Below, piece by piece: positions 24,997 through 35,730 of a stretch of DNA of 50,610 nt. How positions within the stretch are numbered: position 1 is the stretch's first letter; each line of letters begins with the position of its first letter. The DNA is from Syntrophus sp. (in: bacteria). Its GTDB lineage: Bacteria; Desulfobacterota; Syntrophorhabdia; Syntrophorhabdales; Syntrophorhabdaceae. The translations under genes and the position numbers were made by a program. The notes beneath the pieces are model-generated. The model had not been told where the DNA came from and made no database searches. It saw only the letters and a program-made list of their open reading frames with translations. The stretch lies in assembly GCA_013824835.1 (NCBI GenBank), contig PNOM01000012.1, forward strand, positions 1-50,610. The letters are read 5' to 3'.

Positions 24997-25238
24997 GGTA
25001 ACCTCAATTATCTCCAACGTTTCTATATCATAAAAGCCCGGCTTATAGCCATAAAATTCAGCAGTTCCGACAGTAAAAGGGGTAAAAATGGCAAGGAAGT
25101 GGTCCTGTATGGGGTCCGAGTTACTGAGATTGCTCTTGTGACGGCCAATGGCATGGGGTGAAAACTCCATCTGCGCCGCTCGCGTCCTCTGACGTTTGCC
25201 ACCCACACGCTATGGTGAGAAAGTTGATATTCTTGGAC

Positions 25239-25437
25239 GGCTCCCGGCACGGGACGAAAACTTGATCTGTATCGCTCTGCTTGCCTCGGTCCTGCAACGT
25301 ATCCCGATACGTCTCCGGTCTACGAGGCTTCACAGCCCGATACACCTGAAGTCCCCGTCCCGTGCCAGGAGCCACTCCATCCGGCATCAATAGGTGTCTT
25401 TTCATATAGTGGATGCCGGAAAATAGACCAGATGAGG
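25239..25437. repeat. structured repeat, left copy (possible ncRNA or mobile-element relic)
   Basis: An outer stem is formed by GGCTCC + GGCACGGGACG (25239-25256) with CGTCCCGTGCC + GGAGCC (25356-25372), one C-A mismatch between the blocks. Inside lie ACGTATC/GATACGT and GGCTtcacAGCC. A second hairpin follows, CCGGCATC/GATGCCGG (25381-25419). The 57 bases at 25381-25437 match 33770-33826 with only two differences, and the block at 25230-25295 is also closely shared. The outer stem shows a compensating pair change between copies (GGCTCC/GGAGCC here, GGCCCC/GGGGCC there). A third, partial copy of the 3' end (ggatgccggtag) is near 25500-25525. The direction of any transcript is unknown. Confidence 0.65.
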
Positions 25438-25669
25438 CGAGTGTTTCCTGGGAGTGATACAACTGCCATCCGATGAATCACTCTATTTTTGTTGTATGAA
25501 GGATGCCGGTAGAAACGAAAGATGACCCCCATTTCTGCTTCTGCTCGCCAGTGTATATTTCCGACCCTTCGTGCCATCCGTCAGAAAACCTCTCGGCACG
25601 GTTGTTCTTCCTTATAGACGGATTTGCTGATGTGTGTTAATCTTTTTTATCACAGGGAGGTAACAGAAA

Positions 25670-25885
25670 ATGACCACTACAACAAAAGCAAAAAGAATAG
25701 GTGATATGACTGTTGATGAGCTGCAAAGTATCATAAGGGATACCATGCATGAGTTTATTGACCCTGATTACGGTCTGTTGTTGAGGCCAGATATTGAAAA
25801 GGAACTTAAAGAATCAAGAAAACAACGGAAAAAAGGGGAAGGAAGCACTCTGGATGCAGCGAAAAAACAACTTGGCCTTCCATGA
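25670..25885 (+). CDS. RelB-like antitoxin
   Basis: A 71-residue protein. The first half, RIGDMTVDELQSIIRDTMHEFIDPDYGLLLRPDIEKEL, has the helix layout of a family of small antitoxins often annotated next to RelE toxins. The C-terminal part is a charged helix (KESRKQRKKGEGSTLDAAKKQLGLP). GGGAGG lies 8 bases upstream of the ATG. Its stop overlaps the start of a RelE-type toxin gene (ATGA), which confirms the pairing. The toxin frame is interrupted, so the antitoxin may have no partner to neutralise. Confidence 0.72.
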   Translation: MTTTTKAKRIGDMTVDELQSIIRDTMHEFIDPDYGLLLRPDIEKELKESRKQRKKGEGSTLDAAKKQLGLP

Positions 25886-26142
25886 TGTACCACGTAGTTA
25901 TCCTCCCGAAAGAGCTCGATGATTAAGAAAAACTCGATAAAACAACAGCAAAGCGGATAATTGAACGTATAGAATGGCTTTCTGAACACATCGAAGCAAT
26001 AATCCCTCTTCCCTTGAAAAGCAGGCTGTCGGGTTTTTTCAAATTCCATGTAGGGGACTGGCGCATAATCTATGAGATGGACCGCAAAGGTAAAACGCTC
26101 TATATCCATAAAATAGGTCACAGAAGAGAAATATATCAATAA
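25882..26142 (+). pseudogene. RelE-family toxin with an in-frame stop codon
   Basis: The frame from ATG 25882 reads MMYHVVILPKELDD, then TAA at 25924-25926 (codon 15), then continues unbroken EKLDKTTAKRIIERIEWL to the RelE end GDWRIIYEMDRKGKTLYIHKIGHRREIYQ with TAA at 26140-26142. GDWRIIYE and IGHRREIY are the catalytic-end signatures of RelE/ParE-type ribonucleases. A single nonsense change inactivates the full-length toxin; there is no convincing internal start soon after it. The gene overlaps its antitoxin by 4 bases. Confidence 0.82.
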
Positions 26143-26310
26143 CCAATATGGATTTATAAGAAAACACTTGCAATAACACAGCATAATTCGGAAAATAGAA
26201 TATTCAATTCAATATTTTTGGTCAGAAAGACGCATGGTGGCCACAAGCGGCAAATGCGAGAATGCAGGTTCAATGATTTTACTATTCACTGCATCTTTAG
26301 GATGGGAGTA
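26143..26310 (+). other. AT-rich leader before the methyltransferase operon
   Basis: Bases 26143-26210 are AT-rich and contain -10-like hexamers (CATAAT 26182-26187, TAGAAT 26196-26201), but no well-spaced -35 was found. The frame of the methyltransferase is open back to a TTG at 26218. I prefer the ATG at 26311 because GGGAG lies 5 bases before it and upstream text has no methyltransferase character. Confidence 0.4.
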
Positions 26311-27441
26311 ATGACGTGTCAGTATAATAGGCAGCAGAGAGATGTGGTTCGATCTGATGTGCCTCAACATCAATCGCCTCAGCCGTTTACCTGTATTGAT
26401 CTCTTTGCAGGGGCAGGCGGGCTATCGCTTGCTGCAATGAATATTGGACTGAAGGTGAAGGTCGCAATTGAAAAGAATAAGCATGCCTGCAACACATATC
26501 GACATAATTTAATAATAACAGATAGAGAACCATATTTGTACAACGCCGATATTCTTAAAGTCTCTCCAGTTGTTATTGCAGATACACATTTTTCTGGAAA
26601 CAGTTGCTGCGATATCGTTTTAGGTGGCCCGCCGTGTCAAGGTTTTTCTGTTCATCGACTTAATGATGCTGGCGTCGATGATCCAAGAAATGAATTGATA
26701 TTGAGATATTTTGAATTTGTAGACGCACTAAAGCCCAAAGCGTTCTTGATGGAGAACGTTCCCGGTATTCTCTGGAAACGTCACCAAGACTATTTGAGTA
26801 AATTTTACGAGAAAGGGAAGAATACCGGCTACTTCATTCACCAGCCGGTTGTTTTGGACGCAAGGGATTTTGGAGTACCCCAGCGACGGAAGCGTGTTTT
26901 CATTCTCGGTGTAAGAAATGAAGTTTCATTCAATACACTCTGGCCGCCAACACCGACACATGGGAGTAAAAAGTTCAGAAAAAAGAACCCCAAGTTAAAG
27001 CCTTGGCGTATTGCAGAAGAAGTTTTCGCGAGCCCCCCATCTTGCAGTGATGAGAATAATTACCACATGAACCATACCCGTGAAATGCTCGAAGTATTTG
27101 AATCTACTCCATTGAATGGAGGGAGCCGTTTTCAATCAATACGGGTATTGCCTTGCCATAAAAATCATAATGGCCATAAGGACGTGTACGGGAGAATAGA
27201 TTCTTCACGGCCGGGTCCCACCATGACGACGGCCTGTATAAATCCATCTAAAGGGCGATTTGTCCATCCCACAGAACATCATGGAATTACAATCCGGCAT
27301 GCAGCGCGCTTTCAAACCTTCCCGGAATGGTTCACTTTCAAGGGTGGATTGATTGCCGCTGGAGAGCAGATAGGTAACGCGGTGCCGATCAAACTGGGAG
27401 AGATTTTGCTGCAAACTATTTTGGAAGGACTCAGGAAGTAA
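26311..27441 (+). CDS. DNA (cytosine-5) methyltransferase
   Basis: A 376-residue enzyme that transfers a methyl group from S-adenosylmethionine to carbon 5 of cytosine. The ordered motifs are all intact: I, DLFAGAGG (30-37); IV, GGPPCQGFS with catalytic C109; VI, E148-N-V; VIII, Q191-RRKR; and X, QIGNAVP (353-359). The target-recognition region lies between about 200 and 330 and cannot be matched to a sequence by eye. It is first in a rightward set with a GHKL ATPase (37 bases on), a receiver-domain protein and a Vsr endonuclease. The pairing with Vsr is typical of C5-type restriction-modification loci. No conventional restriction enzyme accompanies it. Confidence 0.95.
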   Translation: MTCQYNRQQRDVVRSDVPQHQSPQPFTCIDLFAGAGGLSLAAMNIGLKVKVAIEKNKHACNTYRHNLIITDREPYLYNADILKVSPVVIADTHFSGNSCCDIVLGGPPCQGFSVHRLNDAGVDDPRNELILRYFEFVDALKPKAFLMENVPGILWKRHQDYLSKFYEKGKNTGYFIHQPVVLDARDFGVPQRRKRVFILGVRNEVSFNTLWPPTPTHGSKKFRKKNPKLKPWRIAEEVFASPPSCSDENNYHMNHTREMLEVFESTPLNGGSRFQSIRVLPCHKNHNGHKDVYGRIDSSRPGPTMTTACINPSKGRFVHPTEHHGITIRHAARFQTFPEWFTFKGGLIAAGEQIGNAVPIKLGEILLQTILEGLRK

Positions 27442-27478
27442 GCGACGATGATGGTTGACATTACAATAGAGGAGCAAA

Positions 27479-30451
27479 ATGGTTAAATCGATAGCATTCA
27501 AAACCAGGGCAAGAACGATTGATCACCTCGGTCGAGAGCAAATAGCGGACTGCCCCACTGCCATTTCCGAGCTTTGGAAAAACTCCTACGACGCATATGC
27601 ACGGGAAGTGTCTCTACATATCTTCGACGGAGATGTGCCTGTAGCCGCGGTTTTTGATAATGGCCACGGAATGAGCCACGAAGAATTCATAGAGAAGTGG
27701 CTCGTTGTTGGTACGGAATCAAAGGCATCCGCCATGGAAGTACCGGAAGATGATCGGAATGATCTACCTTATCGAGAGAAACAAGGTCAAAAAGGTATCG
27801 GGCGTCTTTCTTCGGCCTACCTTGGCTCCTTACTTCTTCTGATTTCAAAAAGAAAGACGAATTCTTTCGTCGCTACACTTATCGATTGGCGCCTGTTTGA
27901 GAACCCGTTTCTCTACCTGCAGGACGTCGAAATACCCGTCGTGGAATTCGATAACAAGGTCGACTTTTGGATGCAAATTGCCTCCTTATTCGACAGGATG
28001 ATGGGCAATGTTTGGGGCGACGGTAATGACAGTGCTCGTGATGAACGTGTGGTTGCAGCGTGGGCGACATATAATGCTCTTGAAAGGGAAGAAGGCCGAA
28101 CCTCCACTAAGGCAGCGATCGAAGAAACCTTGATAGGGACGACCTTCACTGAACGACATATTGAAAACTGGCCAGTATGGGCGAATACATCTCCACACGG
28201 AACCGCGATGTTGATGGCCAATATCACCTACGATCTGGAAGCCCAGCTTTACAGCGCTGGAACGACGAGCGAAAGCGATGCACTCCAGAGCGCAAAAGAC
28301 AAACTGTTTCAGACTCTATCGAACTTTACGGACCCTTTTGTTGATCCCCATGAAGTCGAGAGTGGCTTAGGGGCCGATGATTTCAAGTATTCGGTTACGG
28401 CTTGGGAGGGTGCATTAAGTCGCCCAATCATTTCAGATGAGCGTGAATTTGACTACGGAAACCTTGAGGAGCTGGAGCACGTCCTTGATGGCGAAATTGA
28501 CGTGAGTGGAATTTTCAGGGGGAAGGTCAGAGCTTTCGGTAAATGGCTTGGGGGTGAGGTAATCATTAATCCCATTTCTGCTGTCCCCACCCGCTCAGAC
28601 TCCCGCGTTGGCTCGTTTCATTTACGAATTGGAACATTTGAGCAGACTAGAGAGAAGACGACCCATCCGGCGGAACTACACTCGAAGCTTATGGAACAGG
28701 CTGGCAAATACGGCGGTTTCATGGTGTATAGAAACGGTCTTCGCGTCATGCCCTATGGACGTGAGGATAATGATTTCTTTGAAATTGAGTTGCGACGAAC
28801 GAAGCACTTCGGCCGTGAATTCTGGTCGTACAGGCGGCTCTTCGGGCGCGTAGCGCTCACGCGCCTCGAGAATCCGAATCTACGCGACAAAGCCGGGCGC
28901 GAAGGAATTATCGATAACAAGGCAGCGAAGACTTTTCGTGACATCGTTATCAACATTCTTATGGAGAGCGCCAGACGGTTCTATGGCACTGATTCAGATA
29001 TCCGTGCCCAAGCTCTTCCGGATATTAAGGAGAACTATGCGAAGCAGAAGGCTGAGGAAGCACAAAAGCGGATTAAAGCAAGGAAAAGAAGAGAGTTTCG
29101 CAGTAGGCTGATGACAAATTTGCCCCAGATGCGGCTACTGGAAGAAGAATTGATCAAATTGGCAGTGACGGCTCGAAGTGATTCTCTACCCACGACCGAA
29201 ACAGAGTTGTTGACAGTGAGAGAACGCCTCTCAGAACTCAAGGAGCAACGAATCCGTCTCGCGCTCGGCCCTGCACCAAACGTACTGGGTGCATTGGAAT
29301 CGGATTATAGAGCCTTTCGGAGTTGCGACAATAGTGCCGCTGAGCTCATTGTTCGGCTCGGTGCGTCGATCTCTCATCATCTCGAAAGAATCAAACCAAA
29401 GTCTTCAAAAGAAGTGGCATATTCTGAGATCAGTCGCAATGCCGCATATTTGCAGCATAGGCTTCGCAAGTGGTCTGCAGAAACGAAGGAAATTCTCAGT
29501 GGGGAGATCAAGCGGATTTCTGACTTGACTGACGAAAGGAACAAGCGGTACCACAGCGAAACGTTGCCCCTACTGGATGATTTGGAGCATGGTCGAACGA
29601 CGCTTGCAGGAGTTCTTGATCAACTTGAGCTTGAACGGGATCGGCAGGACCGCGAGAATTCGGAGCTTTTTGAGCCCTACATTTCAACACTGAAGAGCTT
29701 GCAGGATAGCATAGATATTGAAACGATGGTAAGTTTCACAATGGAGGAAGCAGCAGACTTGCGTCAGGAGCTTGATCGATTGAATGCCCTGGCGCAACTC
29801 GGCATAACAGTGGAGATCATTGGCCATGAAATTGAAGGGCTGGAGATGACGATATCGCAAGGCCTGGAACATTTACCGAATGTAGCAAAAGATACACCGC
29901 TATTCGCCACGATTCGTGCGGCGCATGGTGCGCTTGTGGATCGGCTTCGATTCCTTTCCCCCCTAAAACTTTCCGGTGAAAAGGTCAGAACTTGGATCGG
30001 CGGGGAGAATATTGTCGATTATGTAAAGGGGTTCATGGGTGAATCCCTTGGACGGCGTGGCATTACACTTAACGTCAGTCCGGAATTTGCCCGTTTCAGT
30101 GTGTACGAACAGGCATCCAGGATATTTCCTGTGTTCATCAACCTAATCAACAATGCTGCCTATTGGGTCAGTCAGTCGCCAACAAACTCTAAAACAATTT
30201 TTCTCGATATCGTTGATGGGAAGGTGGTTGTTGCCGATGATGGTCCCGGTGTAGAGAAAGATGACGTGAAGAGTCTTTTCACTCTTTTTTTTACCAGGAA
30301 GATACGCGGTGGGCGAGGAGTCGGTCTTTATCTCTGCCGCGCTAACCTGGCAGCGGGTGGCCATACGATTAGCTATGCGACAGAAAACCGTCTGCGCAGG
30401 CTTTCAGGGGCGAACTTCATCATTGACTTCAAAGGGGCGAAGTATGACTGA
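27479..30451 (+). CDS. two-headed GHKL protein: MORC-like ATPase at the N-terminus, histidine-kinase core at the C-terminus
   Basis: A 990-residue protein. N-terminal GHKL ATPase: N-box E31-LWKN35-SYDAY, G1 D60-NGHG64, G2 GQKGIGRLSSAYLG (103-116), as in MORC/paraMORC and HSP90-like ATPases of restriction loci. Residues about 400-540 continue as an S5-like part (YRNGLRVMPYGREDNDFFEIELRR, REGIID). A charged coiled region spans about 540-770. The C-terminal 210 residues are a histidine-kinase core: GHEI box with H783, N-box N888-LINNA, G1 D920-DGPG924 and G2 RGVGLYLCRANLAAGG (946 onward). GAGGAG precedes the ATG, and the receiver gene overlaps its end by 8 bases. I infer a sensor that couples DNA- or complex-remodelling ATPase activity to phosphotransfer. 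Confidence 0.85.
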   Translation: MVKSIAFKTRARTIDHLGREQIADCPTAISELWKNSYDAYAREVSLHIFDGDVPVAAVFDNGHGMSHEEFIEKWLVVGTESKASAMEVPEDDRNDLPYREKQGQKGIGRLSSAYLGSLLLLISKRKTNSFVATLIDWRLFENPFLYLQDVEIPVVEFDNKVDFWMQIASLFDRMMGNVWGDGNDSARDERVVAAWATYNALEREEGRTSTKAAIEETLIGTTFTERHIENWPVWANTSPHGTAMLMANITYDLEAQLYSAGTTSESDALQSAKDKLFQTLSNFTDPFVDPHEVESGLGADDFKYSVTAWEGALSRPIISDEREFDYGNLEELEHVLDGEIDVSGIFRGKVRAFGKWLGGEVIINPISAVPTRSDSRVGSFHLRIGTFEQTREKTTHPAELHSKLMEQAGKYGGFMVYRNGLRVMPYGREDNDFFEIELRRTKHFGREFWSYRRLFGRVALTRLENPNLRDKAGREGIIDNKAAKTFRDIVINILMESARRFYGTDSDIRAQALPDIKENYAKQKAEEAQKRIKARKRREFRSRLMTNLPQMRLLEEELIKLAVTARSDSLPTTETELLTVRERLSELKEQRIRLALGPAPNVLGALESDYRAFRSCDNSAAELIVRLGASISHHLERIKPKSSKEVAYSEISRNAAYLQHRLRKWSAETKEILSGEIKRISDLTDERNKRYHSETLPLLDDLEHGRTTLAGVLDQLELERDRQDRENSELFEPYISTLKSLQDSIDIETMVSFTMEEAADLRQELDRLNALAQLGITVEIIGHEIEGLEMTISQGLEHLPNVAKDTPLFATIRAAHGALVDRLRFLSPLKLSGEKVRTWIGGENIVDYVKGFMGESLGRRGITLNVSPEFARFSVYEQASRIFPVFINLINNAAYWVSQSPTNSKTIFLDIVDGKVVVADDGPGVEKDDVKSLFTLFFTRKIRGGRGVGLYLCRANLAAGGHTISYATENRLRRLSGANFIIDFKGAKYD

Positions 30452-32216
30452 TATCGCGATAGAAATACCAAATCATGACGAACTCATCCGAGAAGTTTTC
30501 ATTGACCCGATACGCACCGTGATAGTGGTCGACGACGAATATCCGACGTTGGACAGTCTGACAGCTAAGGAACTGAGCGTAGAAGGCGGCTGGAAGGGAG
30601 AAGAAAAGGATGTTCAGCGTGTTCGTGATCTTCTGGAATTCGCAAGAACAAAGGATAGGCCGTGGCTTGTAGACGTTCATGATGGCAAGAAGATCGGTGC
30701 TGCCACGGAGGAGGTGATCGCTCCGTACCTTCACCATTCAGATTTGTTGGTGTTGGATTACAATTTGGATAGCATCGGGGTCAAGGGTGGCGCTGCAATT
30801 AATATATTGAGAAGACTTGCACAAAATGACCATTTCAACTTGGTTATCGTTCATACAAATGAGAACAACCTTGAAACGGTCATTCGTGGAATCGCGTTAG
30901 GCCTCTCTTATCCTGATCCTGCACTATGTTTCGCCGACGAGGAGGAGAAATCACTGGGTGAAGATTTGGAGCAATGGGAAGACGAAGCCGAAGGGATTAC
31001 ATTGCAGCTTGACAACGAAATCTCGGAGGAGACGTATCTACAAGCAAGAACCAAGTACACGGACAATTACGCGGGGATACTCGGGGCGACGGAGGGGAAA
31101 AGAATTATTGACCTTTGGAAAAATAGGCCAAAACAAGTTCAACTCGACACAAAGCAGCTCGCTAAATTGCTCCTATTCAGAAAGCAGGTGAGCCTGACAA
31201 AACAGTTATCCCCGGAAGATTTTGGAAACGTTCAGGTCGGCCATTCAGACGCCATTAACTGGATACGGACTGATCGACTGTTCATCACCGTTTTGTCTAA
31301 AAGGTGTTCCCCTGATTCATTCGAATCCAAACTGCTGGAGGCGATAAGGACATCTTGTCCTTCTCCCCACCGCCTTCTGCTCGCCAAAATGAGGAGTGAA
31401 ATCGATCAGCGAGGGGTAGTCGCTGAGGCAGCAATCCTCGGGAATCGGCACATACAGGCAGAATGGCTGAGCGATTTTCTGAATCCAGATCCGGTCGACC
31501 CGAAAGGCGTCATTTACAACACGATAGACCAGCACTGGGAGGCCCTCGGTGATCAATTGAGATCGGCTCTCAGCAGTTTTGCTGAACGGTTATATCAGTA
31601 TTTTGCCTCGTTGGACAAAGATGACGTTATGAATGGGTGTGGTTTTAGTAATACCGATGTTGGTTCCACCGACGCTTTGATGTCGTTCAACTGTTTTACG
31701 AGTACCAAGCCTATCGATAGATCACATCTGACTACAGGCCATATATTCAGTATTTCCGGTGAGGAACAATCCCTTTGGGCCTGTCTTACCCCTGCTTGCG
31801 ACATGGTTCCAGATCGGCCATTACCGCCGGGCTTGACTGACTGTCGTCCATTTGTGGCAGTGCAACTCAACCGAATTGACAAAGCTATGGCGTTAAAAAA
31901 TGCTACTAAGAACATCTTTCTGTTTCTCAGAATCAATGGAGAATTGGAGGCGTTCAGCATACACAAAAGGGGTGACATGACGGCAAATCCTGTTTGGAAG
32001 CAGATGTTTGCGCGCGCCAATGGGAGATTTCACGGGGACAGCAAGCTGAATGTCGGCTGGATAGCCCAAAGGGACGGCGAGTTAAGTATAAGTTGGAGCG
32101 AGGTCTCCACTGTGGCCCAACTGCGTTCTGAATACGCGCTAAACTTGCTGCAGCGCATCGGTGTTTTTCTCTCTCGACCCGGGCTAGGCATTAACTTCAA
32201 GAGTCGTCAAGCATAG
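30444..32216 (+). CDS. receiver-domain protein with long unrecognised C-terminal region
   Basis: A 590-residue protein. The first 150 residues form a response-receiver-like domain: D30-D31 in TVIVVDDEYPTL, probable phosphoacceptor D105 in DLLVLDYNLDS, and switch T138 in LVIVHTNENN. An unusually long insert separates D31 from D105. The remaining about 440 residues include an acidic helical part (EEKSLGEDLEQWEDEAEG), a helical middle (HRLLLAKMRSEIDQRGVVAEAAI) and a C-terminal domain with TGHIFSISG and LWACLTPACDMVPD. No nuclease or DNA-binding motif is recognisable. I chose ATG 30444, which overlaps the ATPase stop by 8 bases; translation is coupled. It is the natural phosphate acceptor of the upstream kinase core. 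Confidence 0.8.
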   Translation: MTDIAIEIPNHDELIREVFIDPIRTVIVVDDEYPTLDSLTAKELSVEGGWKGEEKDVQRVRDLLEFARTKDRPWLVDVHDGKKIGAATEEVIAPYLHHSDLLVLDYNLDSIGVKGGAAINILRRLAQNDHFNLVIVHTNENNLETVIRGIALGLSYPDPALCFADEEEKSLGEDLEQWEDEAEGITLQLDNEISEETYLQARTKYTDNYAGILGATEGKRIIDLWKNRPKQVQLDTKQLAKLLLFRKQVSLTKQLSPEDFGNVQVGHSDAINWIRTDRLFITVLSKRCSPDSFESKLLEAIRTSCPSPHRLLLAKMRSEIDQRGVVAEAAILGNRHIQAEWLSDFLNPDPVDPKGVIYNTIDQHWEALGDQLRSALSSFAERLYQYFASLDKDDVMNGCGFSNTDVGSTDALMSFNCFTSTKPIDRSHLTTGHIFSISGEEQSLWACLTPACDMVPDRPLPPGLTDCRPFVAVQLNRIDKAMALKNATKNIFLFLRINGELEAFSIHKRGDMTANPVWKQMFARANGRFHGDSKLNVGWIAQRDGELSISWSEVSTVAQLRSEYALNLLQRIGVFLSRPGLGINFKSRQA

Positions 32217-32224
32217 AGAAACGC

Positions 32225-32632
32225 ATGGACAACCTATCTCCAGAACAGCGGTCAAGTAATATGTCGGCCGTGCGCGGAAAAAATACCTCCCCGGAGTTAC
32301 GAGTTCGTCGAATGCTTCATGCTATGGGCTACCGGTTTCGTCTTCACCGAAAAGACCTCCCCGGCAAACCAGACATAGTACTTTCCAAGTATCGACTCTG
32401 CATATTCGTGCATGGGTGCTTCTGGCATCAGCATCCGGGCTGCAAAAGGGCGACTATTCCAGAGACAAGAAAGACTGAATGGCAGGAAAAGTTTCGCCAG
32501 AACAAAGAGCGGGATGATCTGGTCCAAAAAGAGCTTGAAAACCTAGGGTGGCGCGCGTGTGTGATATGGGAATGCGAAGCTAAAATACCTAACAACCTTA
32601 TTCGGATTATCGCGAAGAATCTCAAAACATGA
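32225..32632 (+). CDS. vsr: Vsr-type DNA mismatch endonuclease
   Basis: A 135-residue very-short-patch repair endonuclease. It matches the family along its length: MSAVRGKNTSPELRVRRMLHAMGYRFRLH, LPGKPDIVLSKYRLCIFVHGCFWHQHPGCKRA, and NLGWRACVIWECEAK. The metal and catalytic residues D50, H63 and H68 are in place. Vsr nicks T:G mismatches that arise when 5-methylcytosine deaminates, so it protects against the mutational cost of the adjacent methyltransferase. It starts 9 bases after the receiver gene and closes the operon. Some Vsr-fold enzymes act as restriction nucleases, but this sequence looks like a plain repair Vsr. Confidence 0.95.
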   Translation: MDNLSPEQRSSNMSAVRGKNTSPELRVRRMLHAMGYRFRLHRKDLPGKPDIVLSKYRLCIFVHGCFWHQHPGCKRATIPETRKTEWQEKFRQNKERDDLVQKELENLGWRACVIWECEAKIPNNLIRIIAKNLKT

Positions 32633-32886
32633 GGTCTATGAGGAAATATAACGAAAGGCACACAAAACACATAAACGGGCGGTGATTACGGATATCATCG
32701 AACATGGTTACACTCTTATGGTGATTAGATTCTGTAAGTTGCCAGTGTTAACCGGTAAGAAATCATCGGAAGTAAAAGGGTGATCCACACTTGGCTTCCG
32801 GCGTATTCCCCCATGCTTCTATTCTGGCTAATTACTGATAATTTATCAAGAAAATAATGTAGTTGTGATTGACTCGTGCGGGTAAT
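32633..32886. other. intergenic region after the vsr operon
   Basis: About 250 bases without a credible gene or clear terminator. It leads to the 3' end of a leftward, disrupted gene, so the two transcripts converge here. Confidence 0.4.
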
Positions 32887-33432
32887 CTATTTTCCTTTTA
32901 ACCATTTTTCATCCTCAAAAGGTTCTGCTATCCTTTTTATTAATGCCGGAGTGAGTTTTCCTCCACTGAGGAGAAAATCCATATCTTCATTGCCTGATGC
33001 AGGAACAGTATGCGGGACACCCAGTATGCTTATCCAGGGAGGACTGCCAGGCGCCACTGGACCCAATGGAGCGGAACGAATCGTCTCCGGGATTATCAGA
33101 TAAAATGAGCCGGTTTTATTGTTGTCGACAGGAGCGGTGCCTTTTGGTATTACCAGCCCACCCTGTTTTGACCGAACTGTTTCTTGAGCAGGCAAACGTA
33201 GCCGATAAGGAGGAGCGCCTTTGCCAACATCAACATCGGCTGTGTAATTCCATTTCTAAATCAATAGTCTATTTTATGTCAGATGTCATTGCGCGCAAAG
33301 CGAAGCAATCTCAAAGCCTTAGATTGCCACGTCGCTACGCTCCTCGCAATGACTTGAATTAGAAATGGAATAAGAAATAGCTGAGAATCCGAGGATTACA
33401 GCGAGTACTGCGATAAAAGCAATCCGATTCAT
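32887..33432 (-). pseudogene. small exported protein gene split by a MITE
   Basis: Reading leftward, ATG 33430-33432 (GGAG 6 bases upstream) begins a signal peptide MNRIAFIAVLAVILGFSAIS, after which the frame enters the MITE at 33248-33370 and stops within it. Beyond the MITE the rest of the protein resumes: TADVDVGKGAPPYRLRLPAQ ... LKGK, stop at 32887. Deleting the 123-bp MITE plus one TAA copy joins the two parts in frame as FSAISYTADVDVG, giving 139 residues. The mature part is proline/glycine-rich with no family I recognise (TGSFYLIIPETIRSAPLGP, SGNEDMDFLLSGGKL). The gene must have been intact before the insertion. Confidence 0.8.
33248..33370. mobile_element. MITE with TAA target duplication (copy 2), disrupting a gene
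   Basis: A 123-bp element with 17-bp inverted ends (TTCCATTTCTAAATCAA and, inverted, TTCCATTTCTAATTCAA; one mismatch) flanked by TAA at 33245-33247 and 33371-33373. The inside is a hairpin made of GTCATTGCG... and ...CGCAATGAC arms, a motif common among dispersed bacterial repeats. Its precise removal restores a reading frame, which fixes both boundaries. Confidence 0.9.
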
Positions 33433-33524
33433 TGCCTTCTCCATATACCCTGAATTGGCATATATTACATTATATCTTCCGGGCGGCAATTTCAATCCCC
33501 TGGAGGCGCGGGTGTGGTTTTAGC

Positions 33525-33545
33525 AATATTCGTCTGTTGAACCGA
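33525..33545. repeat. 21-bp direct repeat, left copy
   Basis: AATATTCGTCTGTTGAACC + GA occurs exactly here and at 34580-34600 in the same orientation. The two copies bracket the right structured repeat and the second TumE-type pair (about 1.05 kb). Confidence 0.8.
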
Positions 33546-33589
33546 GTAACCTTCAGTTAACTGAAGCGAAAAAGATGATGTTCCTGGAC

Positions 33590-33826
33590 GGCCCCTGGCA
33601 CGGGGCGAAAACTTGATCTGCATCGCTCTGCTTGCCTTTGGTCCTCCGACGAATCGCTATACGCCTGCCTACAAGGCTTCACAGCCTTTTCTGATTTAGC
33701 CGGGGACCCGTGCGCAATATGCCCGCATGAGATAAGTTTTGTTCACGGGTGGCACAGGGGCCACTACACCCGGCATCAATAGGTGTCTTTTCGTATATTG
33801 GATGCCGGAAAATAGACCAGATGAGG
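33590..33826. repeat. structured repeat, right copy
   Basis: It corresponds to the element at 25239-25437 in the same orientation. The outer stem is GGCCCC (33590-33595) with GGGGCC (33757-33762), and the inner stem is GCACGGG with CCCGTGC. An extra stretch of about 40 bases sits in the 3' arm. The final 57 bases (33770-33826), including the CCGGCATC/GATGCCGG hairpin, match the left copy at 55 of 57 positions. A perfect palindrome, CTTCAGTTAACTGAAG, lies just upstream (33551-33566). The element ends about 55 bases before the second TumE-type gene. Confidence 0.65.
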
Positions 33827-33845
33827 AAAGTAGTTGTATCTGAAC

Positions 33846-33881
33846 TTCTTTTGTGTAATAAGTTATGGTATAATATACCAT
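33846..33881 (+). promoter_or_regulatory. promoter/operator of the second TumE-type pair
   Basis: TTCTTT (33846-33851) and a perfect TATAAT (33869-33874) are 17 bases apart. The -10 box is the centre of the perfect palindrome ATGGTATAATATACCAT (33865-33881). The ATG at 33882 begins 7 bases after the -10 box, so the transcript should be leaderless. The same arrangement with a near-identical motif precedes the first pair. Confidence 0.7.
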
Positions 33882-34175
33882 ATGGTGGCAGAACTCATAT
33901 TTAGATCGAAGTTTGTATACCCTGACGGGGCTATCAGGGAGATGGTGCTATGGAGGCTGCCCGAAAAAACAGCAGACAACCCCTTTGGCCTCAAATACAG
34001 ACTTCATTACGGGTATCCCGATGGAAGAACGGTAATACGTTACGATAATGAGAAAGGCAAGAGTCATCATAAACACATCGGTGGCGATGAAGAGTTATAT
34101 CAATTTATTGATGTTGAGTCTCTTGTCGCTGATTTTTTGTCCGACATTGAGCGGGCACGAGGGGGCTTACAATGA
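33882..34175 (+). CDS. TumE-type (DUF6516) toxin-like protein, second copy
   Basis: A 97-residue protein, MVAELIFRSKFVYPDGAI, with the same plan as the gene at 653-934: a MVLWRLPEK strand, LKYRLHYGYPDGRTVIRYDNEKGKSHHKHIG in place of the first copy's ERVVGYDNGEGKGDHRHYG, and an acidic C-terminal helix (VADFLSDIERAR). The two are clear paralogues but too diverged to be a recent duplication. The start is the ATG at 33882; an in-frame earlier start would lie upstream of the promoter. It overlaps its antitoxin by ATGA (34172-34175). Confidence 0.75.
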   Translation: MVAELIFRSKFVYPDGAIREMVLWRLPEKTADNPFGLKYRLHYGYPDGRTVIRYDNEKGKSHHKHIGGDEELYQFIDVESLVADFLSDIERARGGLQ

Positions 34176-34531
34176 ATGATGATGTAAAAATAGAAATCAA
34201 AGAGGCGAAACAGTCGGCACAGGAATTTGTTGATGCCTGGCATCGCGCTGAGCGGGGCGAGCCAACTGAAGAACCTGTGGACCGGCTCTATTTCCCGGAC
34301 TTGGAGGCGTTGCTTCGAACGCTGACTGCCCGTCGCATCGGGCTGTTGAAGATGCTCCACAAGACTGGCGTTACGAGCATCCGTGCCCTTGCCGGGCTTG
34401 TTAAACGGGACTACAAAAACGTTTATCAGGACATAAAAGCCCTTGAAGCGATCGGCTTGGTGGTTCGGGGAGACAAGGGATTCTCTGTGCCGTGGGAACG
34501 TATCGTTGCTGAAATACCTTTGGCGGCATGA
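34172..34531 (+). CDS. winged-helix antitoxin/regulator of the second TumE-type pair
   Basis: A 119-residue protein with an N-terminal helical part (IEIKEAKQSAQEFVDAWHRAERGE) and a winged helix-turn-helix (TSIRALAGLVKRDYKNVYQDIKALEAIGLVVRG). It shares the fold and the KRD-KNV-D-LE-IGL pattern with the antitoxin at 931-1296. It probably binds the palindrome over the promoter at 33865-33881. The DNA-binding fold is clear; the neutralising role is inferred from the family. Confidence 0.75.
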   Translation: MNDDVKIEIKEAKQSAQEFVDAWHRAERGEPTEEPVDRLYFPDLEALLRTLTARRIGLLKMLHKTGVTSIRALAGLVKRDYKNVYQDIKALEAIGLVVRGDKGFSVPWERIVAEIPLAA

Positions 34532-34579
34532 ATGAGCTATTGAGGCACAGTCAGACGCTAAGCTGCCAAGATTTGAAGT

Positions 34580-34600
34580 AATATTCGTCTGTTGAACCGA
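34580..34600. repeat. 21-bp direct repeat, right copy
   Basis: Exact partner of 33525-33545. It lies about 50 bases after the antitoxin stop, so a segment carrying the structured repeat and the toxin-antitoxin pair is flanked on both sides. Confidence 0.8.
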
Positions 34601-34738
34601 TGACTTTCTCCTTGAAATTAGCGGACGGATGGGGGAAAATGAAGTTGAAGGCATCAGGAAGGAATAGGTACACAGGAATGATTTGCGCGATTTAGTAATC
34701 ATTCCTGATCTGCTCAGGCTATACAGGTTGGAGCCGCG

Positions 34739-35266
34739 ATGAAGACCATTAAAGCATTAACCATTCGGCGGTCCACGGTGGCCCCCACAGTCAAGGGTCC
34801 GGAGATGCGGGCTCCTTTGAGGCCTCTACGGGTAGCATTGTGTGCAATGTTGTTCCTTGTGAATTTTCATGTCAGTGCCTTTGCCCAATCATCATGCAAC
34901 GGAATTCACGTAAAGATTTTGGACATTAGAAATAATACTGGAACCATAGCATGTGCGCTCTTTGAATCTCCGGATGGCTTCCCTGATGATTATCACCGTT
35001 TTGCAGCCAGTATTATAGCAACAAAAATTCGCGATAAGCAGGCCCGTTGTGATTTTCAGGACATCGCGCCTGGAACATATGCCCTTGTCGTTGCTCACGA
35101 TGAAAACATGAACGGCAAACTTGACGCTAATTGGCTGGGGGCGCCAACGGAAGGTTACGGTTTTTCAAACGATGCAAAGGCATGGCTTCGCGCGCCTTCA
35201 TTCTCTGCAGCCAGCTTCTCCTTCGATGGGAAAAACCTGGATCTGACGATCAGCCTCCATTACTGA
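34739..35266 (+). CDS. exported DUF2141 protein
   Basis: A 175-residue protein. The signal peptide has a long basic start and a hydrophobic core (LRVALCAMLFLVNFHVSAFAQ), cleaved near AFAQ. The mature part has the DUF2141 sequence: HVKILDIRNNTGTIACALFESPDGFP, FQDIAPGTYALVVAHDENMNGKLDANWLGAPTEGYGFSNDA. The latter resembles a beta-sandwich with a DxNxNGKLD calcium-like loop. DUF2141 proteins are periplasmic or secreted and of unknown function. GGAG precedes the ATG by about 6 bases. ATG 34805 (MRAPLRP) is an alternative start with a more usual signal-peptide length. Confidence 0.85.
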   Translation: MKTIKALTIRRSTVAPTVKGPEMRAPLRPLRVALCAMLFLVNFHVSAFAQSSCNGIHVKILDIRNNTGTIACALFESPDGFPDDYHRFAASIIATKIRDKQARCDFQDIAPGTYALVVAHDENMNGKLDANWLGAPTEGYGFSNDAKAWLRAPSFSAASFSFDGKNLDLTISLHY

Positions 35267-35396
35267 ACGCCCCACGAGGTAGATTCCATTTCAAGGTGAA
35301 CCACGTATGGCCCGACAATACACCTGATGGGGAAACTTCTCCACAGGATTGTTTTCAGGTTGTAAATAGTGCGTAATCACGTATAATAAACAAGAC

Positions 35397-35714
35397 ATGT
35401 CTACTAAAGTGAAAAGAAAAGGCAATCCAGTGAAAGAATCACGGTCACAACCCCGTGGCCTCAATTCTCCTTCTTCAGTCACATCCAGGGCGAAAAAGAA
35501 CAGAAAGAAGAATATCCAGCAGGTCCGTGACAGATCAGGACAGAAGATGATAAACAGAATTAAGGCGATCGTCCTTATATGCATCGCGTTACTCTCCTTT
35601 GCGTACATGATATATTCAGGCGGGTCAACCGGCGGCTTTGTCTTGCTGGTTATCGGGCTCGTCTGTGGTCTTCTCGGTGTATTATACATCCGCGAAGGCA
35701 AAAAAAGCGGCTGA
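35397..35714 (+). CDS. small membrane protein, function unknown
   Basis: A 105-residue protein. The first 50 residues are strongly basic (KVKRKGNPVKESRSQPRGL..., AKKNRKKNIQQ) and would stay in the cytoplasm. Two transmembrane segments follow (IKAIVLICIALLSFAYMIYSGG and GGFVLLVIGLVCGLLGVLYI). It ends 16 bases before the HD-hydrolase gene on the same strand. No family is recognised. Confidence 0.6.
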   Translation: MSTKVKRKGNPVKESRSQPRGLNSPSSVTSRAKKNRKKNIQQVRDRSGQKMINRIKAIVLICIALLSFAYMIYSGGSTGGFVLLVIGLVCGLLGVLYIREGKKSG

Positions 35715-35730
35715 GGGGGAGAGGAAAATT

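Follow-up and report, generated by a model that had tools for sequence, protein, structure and literature searches.

Proteins with HEF_HK and Response_reg_2 domains were linked to C5 cytosine methylases by Bellieny-Rabelo, Pretorius and Moleleki in 2021 (PMC8011034), who noted that a Vsr gene often lies just downstream of the receiver gene, did not assign a function and, for the N-terminal part, reported no more than a relationship to HATPase_c_3 and paraMORC proteins. ParaMORCs occur in restriction-modification operons (PMC2292703), which bears out the remark in a preliminary description of the present DNA that MORC-type GHKL ATPases are found in such neighbourhoods. The window analysed here (the whole stretch of DNA studied, 50,610 nucleotides of contig PNOM01000012.1 from Syntrophus sp.) carries a locus that, by its sequence, belongs to the kind catalogued in 2021: the kinase has the domain order HATPase_c_3 (1e-18), HEF_HK (2e-5) and HATPase_c (5e-13), all three over the Pfam cut-offs, a Response_reg_2 receiver gene adjoins it, and C5 methylase and Vsr genes lie upstream and downstream, respectively. 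The locus is not undescribed, as had first been supposed, since both its architecture and its association with restriction-modification were already in print (PMC8011034). New beyond that work are a MORC/SMCHD1 fold match, a dedicated methylase, a near-invariant motif in the output domain, compact relatives of the system and IS3-truncated copies in Escherichia coli. In the open-access literature searched, no experimental test of the system's function was found. In the comparison with defence-system profiles that the preliminary description had proposed, kinase and receiver matched no system listed in PADLOC, which has no model for the receiver or the C-terminal half of the kinase and whose REase_II model matches the GHKL part weakly. 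We consider the locus, with a probability of roughly 0.7, to be a modification-guided defence module of this general kind.

The four genes lie on the same strand with gaps of 37, -8 and 8 bases (Table 1), exactly as the preliminary description had placed them. The same four genes occur at a different genomic position in another genome of the genus (G306), and against these copies (69-80% amino-acid identity) none of the four has an internal stop and pN/pS is 0.14-0.24 across all of them; all four are therefore under purifying selection. In a second genome of the genus (G361), which lacks the system, the flanking genes are about 160 bp apart, compared with about 10.7 kb here, and thus the operon sits in an island that was either gained at this site or lost in G361. 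Just upstream of the operon (25670-26145), an antitoxin-like ORF is followed by a RelE-like frame that an in-frame stop near 25926 interrupts early, by eye what looks like a broken toxin-antitoxin pair. Downstream of Vsr in the same island (33834-34531), two overlapping small ORFs, the second HTH-like, resemble a toxin-antitoxin-like pair by eye. Elsewhere in the window, a PemK/MazF-family gene is encoded at 1557-1862 on the minus strand (PF02452, E 1.7e-26).

Table 1. Features of the operon and its island, with positions in the window.
Feature	Position	Strand	Basis
Island of about 10.7 kb carrying the operon, between glyQ and the gene at 35638	25062..35729		flank comparison
C5 cytosine DNA methyltransferase, 376 aa	26311..27441	+	PF00145, E 4e-61
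Methylase target-recognition domain (TRD)	about residues 206-312 of the C5 methyltransferase	+	conservation comparison, 81 loci
MORC-type ATPase/histidine kinase fusion, 990 aa	27479..30451	+	PF13589 + PF19191 + PF02518
MORC/SMCHD1-like ATPase module, residues about 10-516	27506..29026	+	fold matches, invariant residues
His783, predicted phospho-acceptor of the HEF_HK domain	29825..29827	+	invariant, 60/60
Histidine-kinase catalytic (CA) domain, residues 835-988	29981..30442	+	fold, N/G1/G2 boxes
Receiver (RR-like) protein, 590 aa	30444..32216	+	PF19192 Response_reg_2, 2e-16
Receiver domain, residues 21-306, helical insertion about 165-250	30504..31361	+	fold matches
Candidate output domain, residues 412-590, mostly beta	31677..32213	+	invariant C452, near-invariant D453
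Vsr mismatch endonuclease, accessory	32225..32632	+	PF03852, 8e-32; TIGR00632, 4e-43

A kinase profile built from four sequences found 78 loci in GTDB genomes and a further 6 in viral contigs that carry the system; the counts below refer to the 87 loci with a receiver gene, including added plasmid loci and same-phylum genomes. The kinase gene adjoins the receiver gene in all 87 (overlapping or abutting it in 80 of 83), a methylase lies close by in 86, upstream or downstream of the pair, and the pairwise distances of kinase and receiver are strongly correlated (r = 0.93 over 81 loci; permutation maximum 0.13 in a first distance analysis). Vsr is nearby in 32 loci, directly after the receiver in about a dozen, and absent from 55. 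Since Vsr is optional, the methylase near-constant and the kinase always paired with the receiver, the unit is methylase, kinase and receiver; the earlier proposal of a conserved mobile operon thus holds for these three genes, but not as a four-gene unit. Some loci carry further nucleases next to the core (HNH_2, HNH_5-like, AspBHI_N-Mrr and Mrr); in about 40, Vsr is missing and no other nuclease was recognised. At these, neighbouring ORFs encode integrases, repressors, phage genes and housekeeping genes, and no nuclease family recurs in two or more loci among the 25 commonest of 150 Pfam families in 108 neighbour ORFs. Endonucleases with AspBHI_N and Mrr_cat domains were checked near the methylase module in L043 (6373-7677) and L084 (5608-7008) and are assigned by sequence cluster in L047, L071 and L077; AspBHI itself cuts methylated DNA.

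The preliminary description had called the kinase a two-headed GHKL protein, and both heads were recovered by AlphaFold (pLDDT 82.5, pTM 0.61) and fold search, with the ATPase modules of SMCHD1 and MORC2 at the top of the Foldseek list and histidine kinases next. Structural alignment of residues 10-516 with VIA-align gave Z 17.2 over 333 residues for MORC3, 17.0 over 352 for SMCHD1 and 15.5 over 317 for MORC4, and these alignments (317-352 residues) contain the GHKL plus S5 module of a MORC ATPase. No CW zinc finger or other chromatin-reading domain appeared in the Pfam scan, whose profiles may miss a diverged form; prokaryotic MORCs need not carry either. Residues 775-988 align to many histidine kinases at Z 15-18. 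Across 60 homologs, E31, N35, D60, G64, G106 and G108 of the first head and N888, N892, D920, G922, G945, G947 and G949 of the second are invariant, including the N, G1 and G2 box residues of the CA domain, and in the AlphaFold model helices connect the ATPase head to the kinase core. On this model, the chain begins with a MORC/SMCHD1-type ATPase module of some 510 residues, to which a histidine-kinase core is joined.

MORC and SMCHD1 are ATPases of compaction and silencing, and with MORC3 and SMCHD1 as the best fold matches the module might silence rather than cut: a MORC-like clamp would compact unmodified foreign DNA and shut off its transcription, and the His-Asp relay would open or close the clamp instead of firing a nuclease. 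The control of MORC2 compaction by phosphorylation (PMC12216690) and the roughly 40 loci without a recognised nuclease are consistent with this. Nevertheless, we consider silencing rather unlikely because clamps alone need no dedicated receiver with a conserved output domain, and because the closest sequence family of the head, like one relative of the methylase, is either annotated as a restriction enzyme or located beside one.

The receiver gene overlaps the kinase gene by 8 bases and its product scores 60.9 bits against the Response_reg_2 cut-off of 27. In the AlphaFold model (pLDDT 91), the receiver domain matches that of PorX at Z 10.7 and many other receivers at about 10; D30, D31, D105 and K286 are invariant in 82 of 82 sequences and T138 is kept in 80 of 82. 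Kinase and receiver together hold the full two-component complement, namely a DHp histidine and CA domain on one side and the acidic pair, Asp, Thr and Lys on the other. The residues of the phosphotransfer trigger suggested earlier are therefore in place (His783 and the receiver residues invariant, apart from T138), whereas the transfer itself is predicted from them. The C-terminal residues 412-590 have conserved N416, G432, C447, C452, D453, R561, Y564, R578 and G580 and found no relative in Pfam, PADLOC or the PDB; a profile of this region detects one clear copy per genome, always within the receiver, plus one compact relative. Searches with the receiver model probed the C-terminal half weakly, as the Foldseek and VIA lists were filled by matches to the receiver domain; a viral structure library gave no match to the model, and a peptide-pattern search for the receiver alone gave no close viral relative. 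A MazF/PemK-like barrel, considered by eye for the output domain, was not supported (hhalign probability 0.2% against a small, noisy MazF set).

Neither profiles nor fold searches with the two AlphaFold models revealed a nuclease besides Vsr, in agreement with the preliminary description and with the C-terminal half of the receiver weakly probed. Its further proposal, that ATPase and receiver take the place of a nuclease, is still something we infer, since the receiver searches, equally weak over the C-terminal half, revealed no fold of a restriction enzyme. An enzyme could nonetheless be hidden there: the module would then be a phosphorelay-gated restriction enzyme, with a nuclease or toxic enzyme in the C-terminal domain of the receiver, possibly centred on C452-D453. 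The module does occur without a neighbouring nuclease, the domain was detected in no proteins other than these receivers, and C452 and D453 are invariant or nearly so, with the Cys-Asp recurring in compact relatives; even so, we judge this unlikely because neither fold nor profile matched a nuclease (the C-terminal part weakly probed) and an isolated Cys-Asp is atypical of a metal-dependent nuclease site. Very unlikely is an ordinary two-component regulator of the methylase or of other genes, for although the histidine-kinase and receiver folds are genuine and their catalytic residues are all present, no output domain of a DNA-binding type was recognised, the kinase is a soluble protein whose MORC head stands where a sensor would be, and the module moves as three genes among unrelated neighbours.

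The compact relatives join an ordinary receiver to the same kind of C-terminal domain with the CD motif preserved, which reads VVLSPACDLV in the relative found by the profile. In L140 and L141 (600-2119), the compact receiver directly follows a HATPase kinase and, in L141, directly precedes a Vsr gene; a similar pair on a Campylobacter conjugative plasmid (L143, 3798-8251) lies beside a dcm gene, and another (L142, 4852-8074) adjoins neither Vsr nor dcm. Compact pairs were found on Campylobacter conjugative plasmids and an Enterobacter mori plasmid, and the kinases of these plasmid pairs also have an N-terminal HATPase_c_3. His783 lines up with a His-Glu in the compact relatives and in distant ones that the HEF_HK model does not reach. 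The two Pfam models thus cover only part of the superfamily.

The first gene encodes a C5 methyltransferase, as had been read from its motifs (DLFAGAGG, GGPPCQGFS, ENVPG, QRRKR and IGNAVP), and its PF00145 match identifies it as a DNA methylase such as a type II restriction-modification system would include; NCBIfam and PADLOC concur on the methylase and on Vsr. Across 81 loci, the TRD, with the conserved stretch NGGSRxxSxRxLxCHxxxxGHxDVYGR, has a mean identity of 49%, on a par with the 52% of the catalytic core, which suggests one target site common to the methylases of these loci. Homologs at E<1e-40 occurred in only three records among 72,556 plasmids, all of which also carry the receiver; on these matches, the methylase is a dedicated subfamily of the module. 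A first distance analysis had suggested that methylases are swapped among loci, a view rejected because that analysis had used a non-adjacent second methylase in L079 and others, and adjacent methylases alone gave the TRD conservation of 49%. Kinase and methylase distances correlate only moderately (0.52, 81 loci), so methylases are sometimes exchanged between loci. The next relative of the methylase (35% identity) is encoded in a Pantoea prophage, where its neighbour is a full-length GHKL protein of BbrUII/HgiDII type, so the module may have descended from, or have parts in common with, such restriction-modification systems.

The last gene was likewise correctly read as Vsr: it matches E. coli Vsr at 2.5e-28 with the PGxPD and HGCFWHxH motifs intact. 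Vsr is a T:G mismatch endonuclease and the usual companion of m5C methylases. That the ATPase brings in Vsr to do the killing, in the way that MutL recruits nucleases, is hardly credible. Vsr does follow the receiver directly here and in about a dozen loci, is known to interact with MutL (cited in PMC2292703) and accompanies all three BbrUII-type loci checked, but it is missing from 55 of 87 loci and is by type a mismatch endonuclease.

Phage genes and integrases are among the neighbours of the module, and in E. coli related DNA is present in 771 of 5426 complete genomes and all three genes of the module, at no less than 99% identity, in 205. One E. coli copy lies on an element, adjoining tRNA-Leu, that has a MobH relaxase and an integrase; Fic and a phosphorothioation-dependent endonuclease are encoded close by. 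Modules of Photorhabdus and Brenneria type are present in E. coli, and the Citrobacter module found no match in that species. Two weaker E. coli matches (L181 and L182, 8016-11484 in each) have a kinase gene that has lost its 5' part beside an IS3 element; the MORC head and methylase are absent, and the kinase tail stands with an intact receiver and an integrase; the truncated copy of L181 adjoins ssrA. A weak 200-base match as in these two recurs in hundreds of E. coli genomes. Some of the 'group 2' proteins without HATPase_c_3 (PMC8011034) may be IS3-truncated remnants of this sort.

The defence reading is preferred because of the pairing of kinase with receiver (87/87) and methylase (86/87), the correlation of 0.93 and the invariant catalytic residues; because MORC/SMCHD1 and kinase folds are combined with a dedicated methylase whose relative is linked to BbrUII/HgiDII; and because the module is mobile, as seen in the genomic island, the viral contigs, the phage and integrase neighbours and the relaxase/integrase element. 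Against it count the moderate kinase-methylase correlation, the IS3-truncated E. coli copies, in which kinase tail and receiver persist with methylase and MORC head gone, and the three-gene core itself, in which no nuclease or other effector was recognised.

In a defence module of this kind, self DNA would be marked by the methylase at a single conserved site, and the MORC-type head, as an ATP-driven DNA clamp, would load or close on incoming DNA without that mark. As the clamp closes and the protein dimerises through its long coiled coil, the C-terminal histidine kinase would be switched on, autophosphorylate at His783 and hand the phosphate on to the receiver at Asp105. The C-terminal Cys-Asp domain of the phosphorylated receiver would then give the output directly or recruit a nuclease, of HNH or Mrr type where present. 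Vsr would repair T:G mismatches arising from deaminated methylcytosines rather than serve as the restriction enzyme. We infer clamp loading, methylation sensing and the direction of the signal, and the clamp action is modelled by analogy on MORC2, a phosphorylation-dependent DNA clamp (PMC12216690). Whether the full relay operates as proposed is, in our estimate, an even call, and that a MORC-type clamp detects unmodified DNA and reports by His-Asp phosphorelay to a new class of receiver-linked effector is advanced more tentatively. Were this so, a restriction system would be switched by two-component signalling, and the ATP cycle of a bacterial MORC would drive a kinase. His-Asp phosphotransfer, familiar from environmental sensing, would then also control how self and non-self DNA are told apart, and the reading of DNA by MORC clamps could be studied in a genetically simple bacterial model. 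The presence of the module in 205 of 5426 complete E. coli genomes makes it testable by standard phage assays with a laboratory strain.

Detocs is a two-component phage defence with kinase, receiver and effector proteins; the PADLOC matches, from a version that may lack a Detocs model, included none to it. Among other known systems, Shedu VcSduA likewise starts with a GHKL ATPase, for which control of a defence effector has been proposed, but its nuclease is in the same chain and it has neither methylase nor receiver (PMC12137116). The MORC/paraMORC ATPases of restriction-modification operons share the GHKL plus S5-type module and the C5 methylase and Vsr neighbours (PMC2292703), whereas here the ATPase is fused to a histidine kinase in an operon without a helicase. 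The BbrUII/HgiDII GHKL restriction enzymes (NF050001) resemble the kinase in the N-terminal GHKL domain (E 2e-15, residues 12-128). In the three strongest loci of this type in the phylum (L155, L156 and L157), Vsr is directly adjacent; a C5 methylase with a BbrUII-type GHKL protein also lies near holin genes in the late region of a Pantoea agglomerans prophage (L158, 5941-8959). Over its full length, however, the kinase does not match these enzymes, scoring 56 bits against a cut-off of 550, and its C-terminal part is instead a histidine kinase with a separate receiver.
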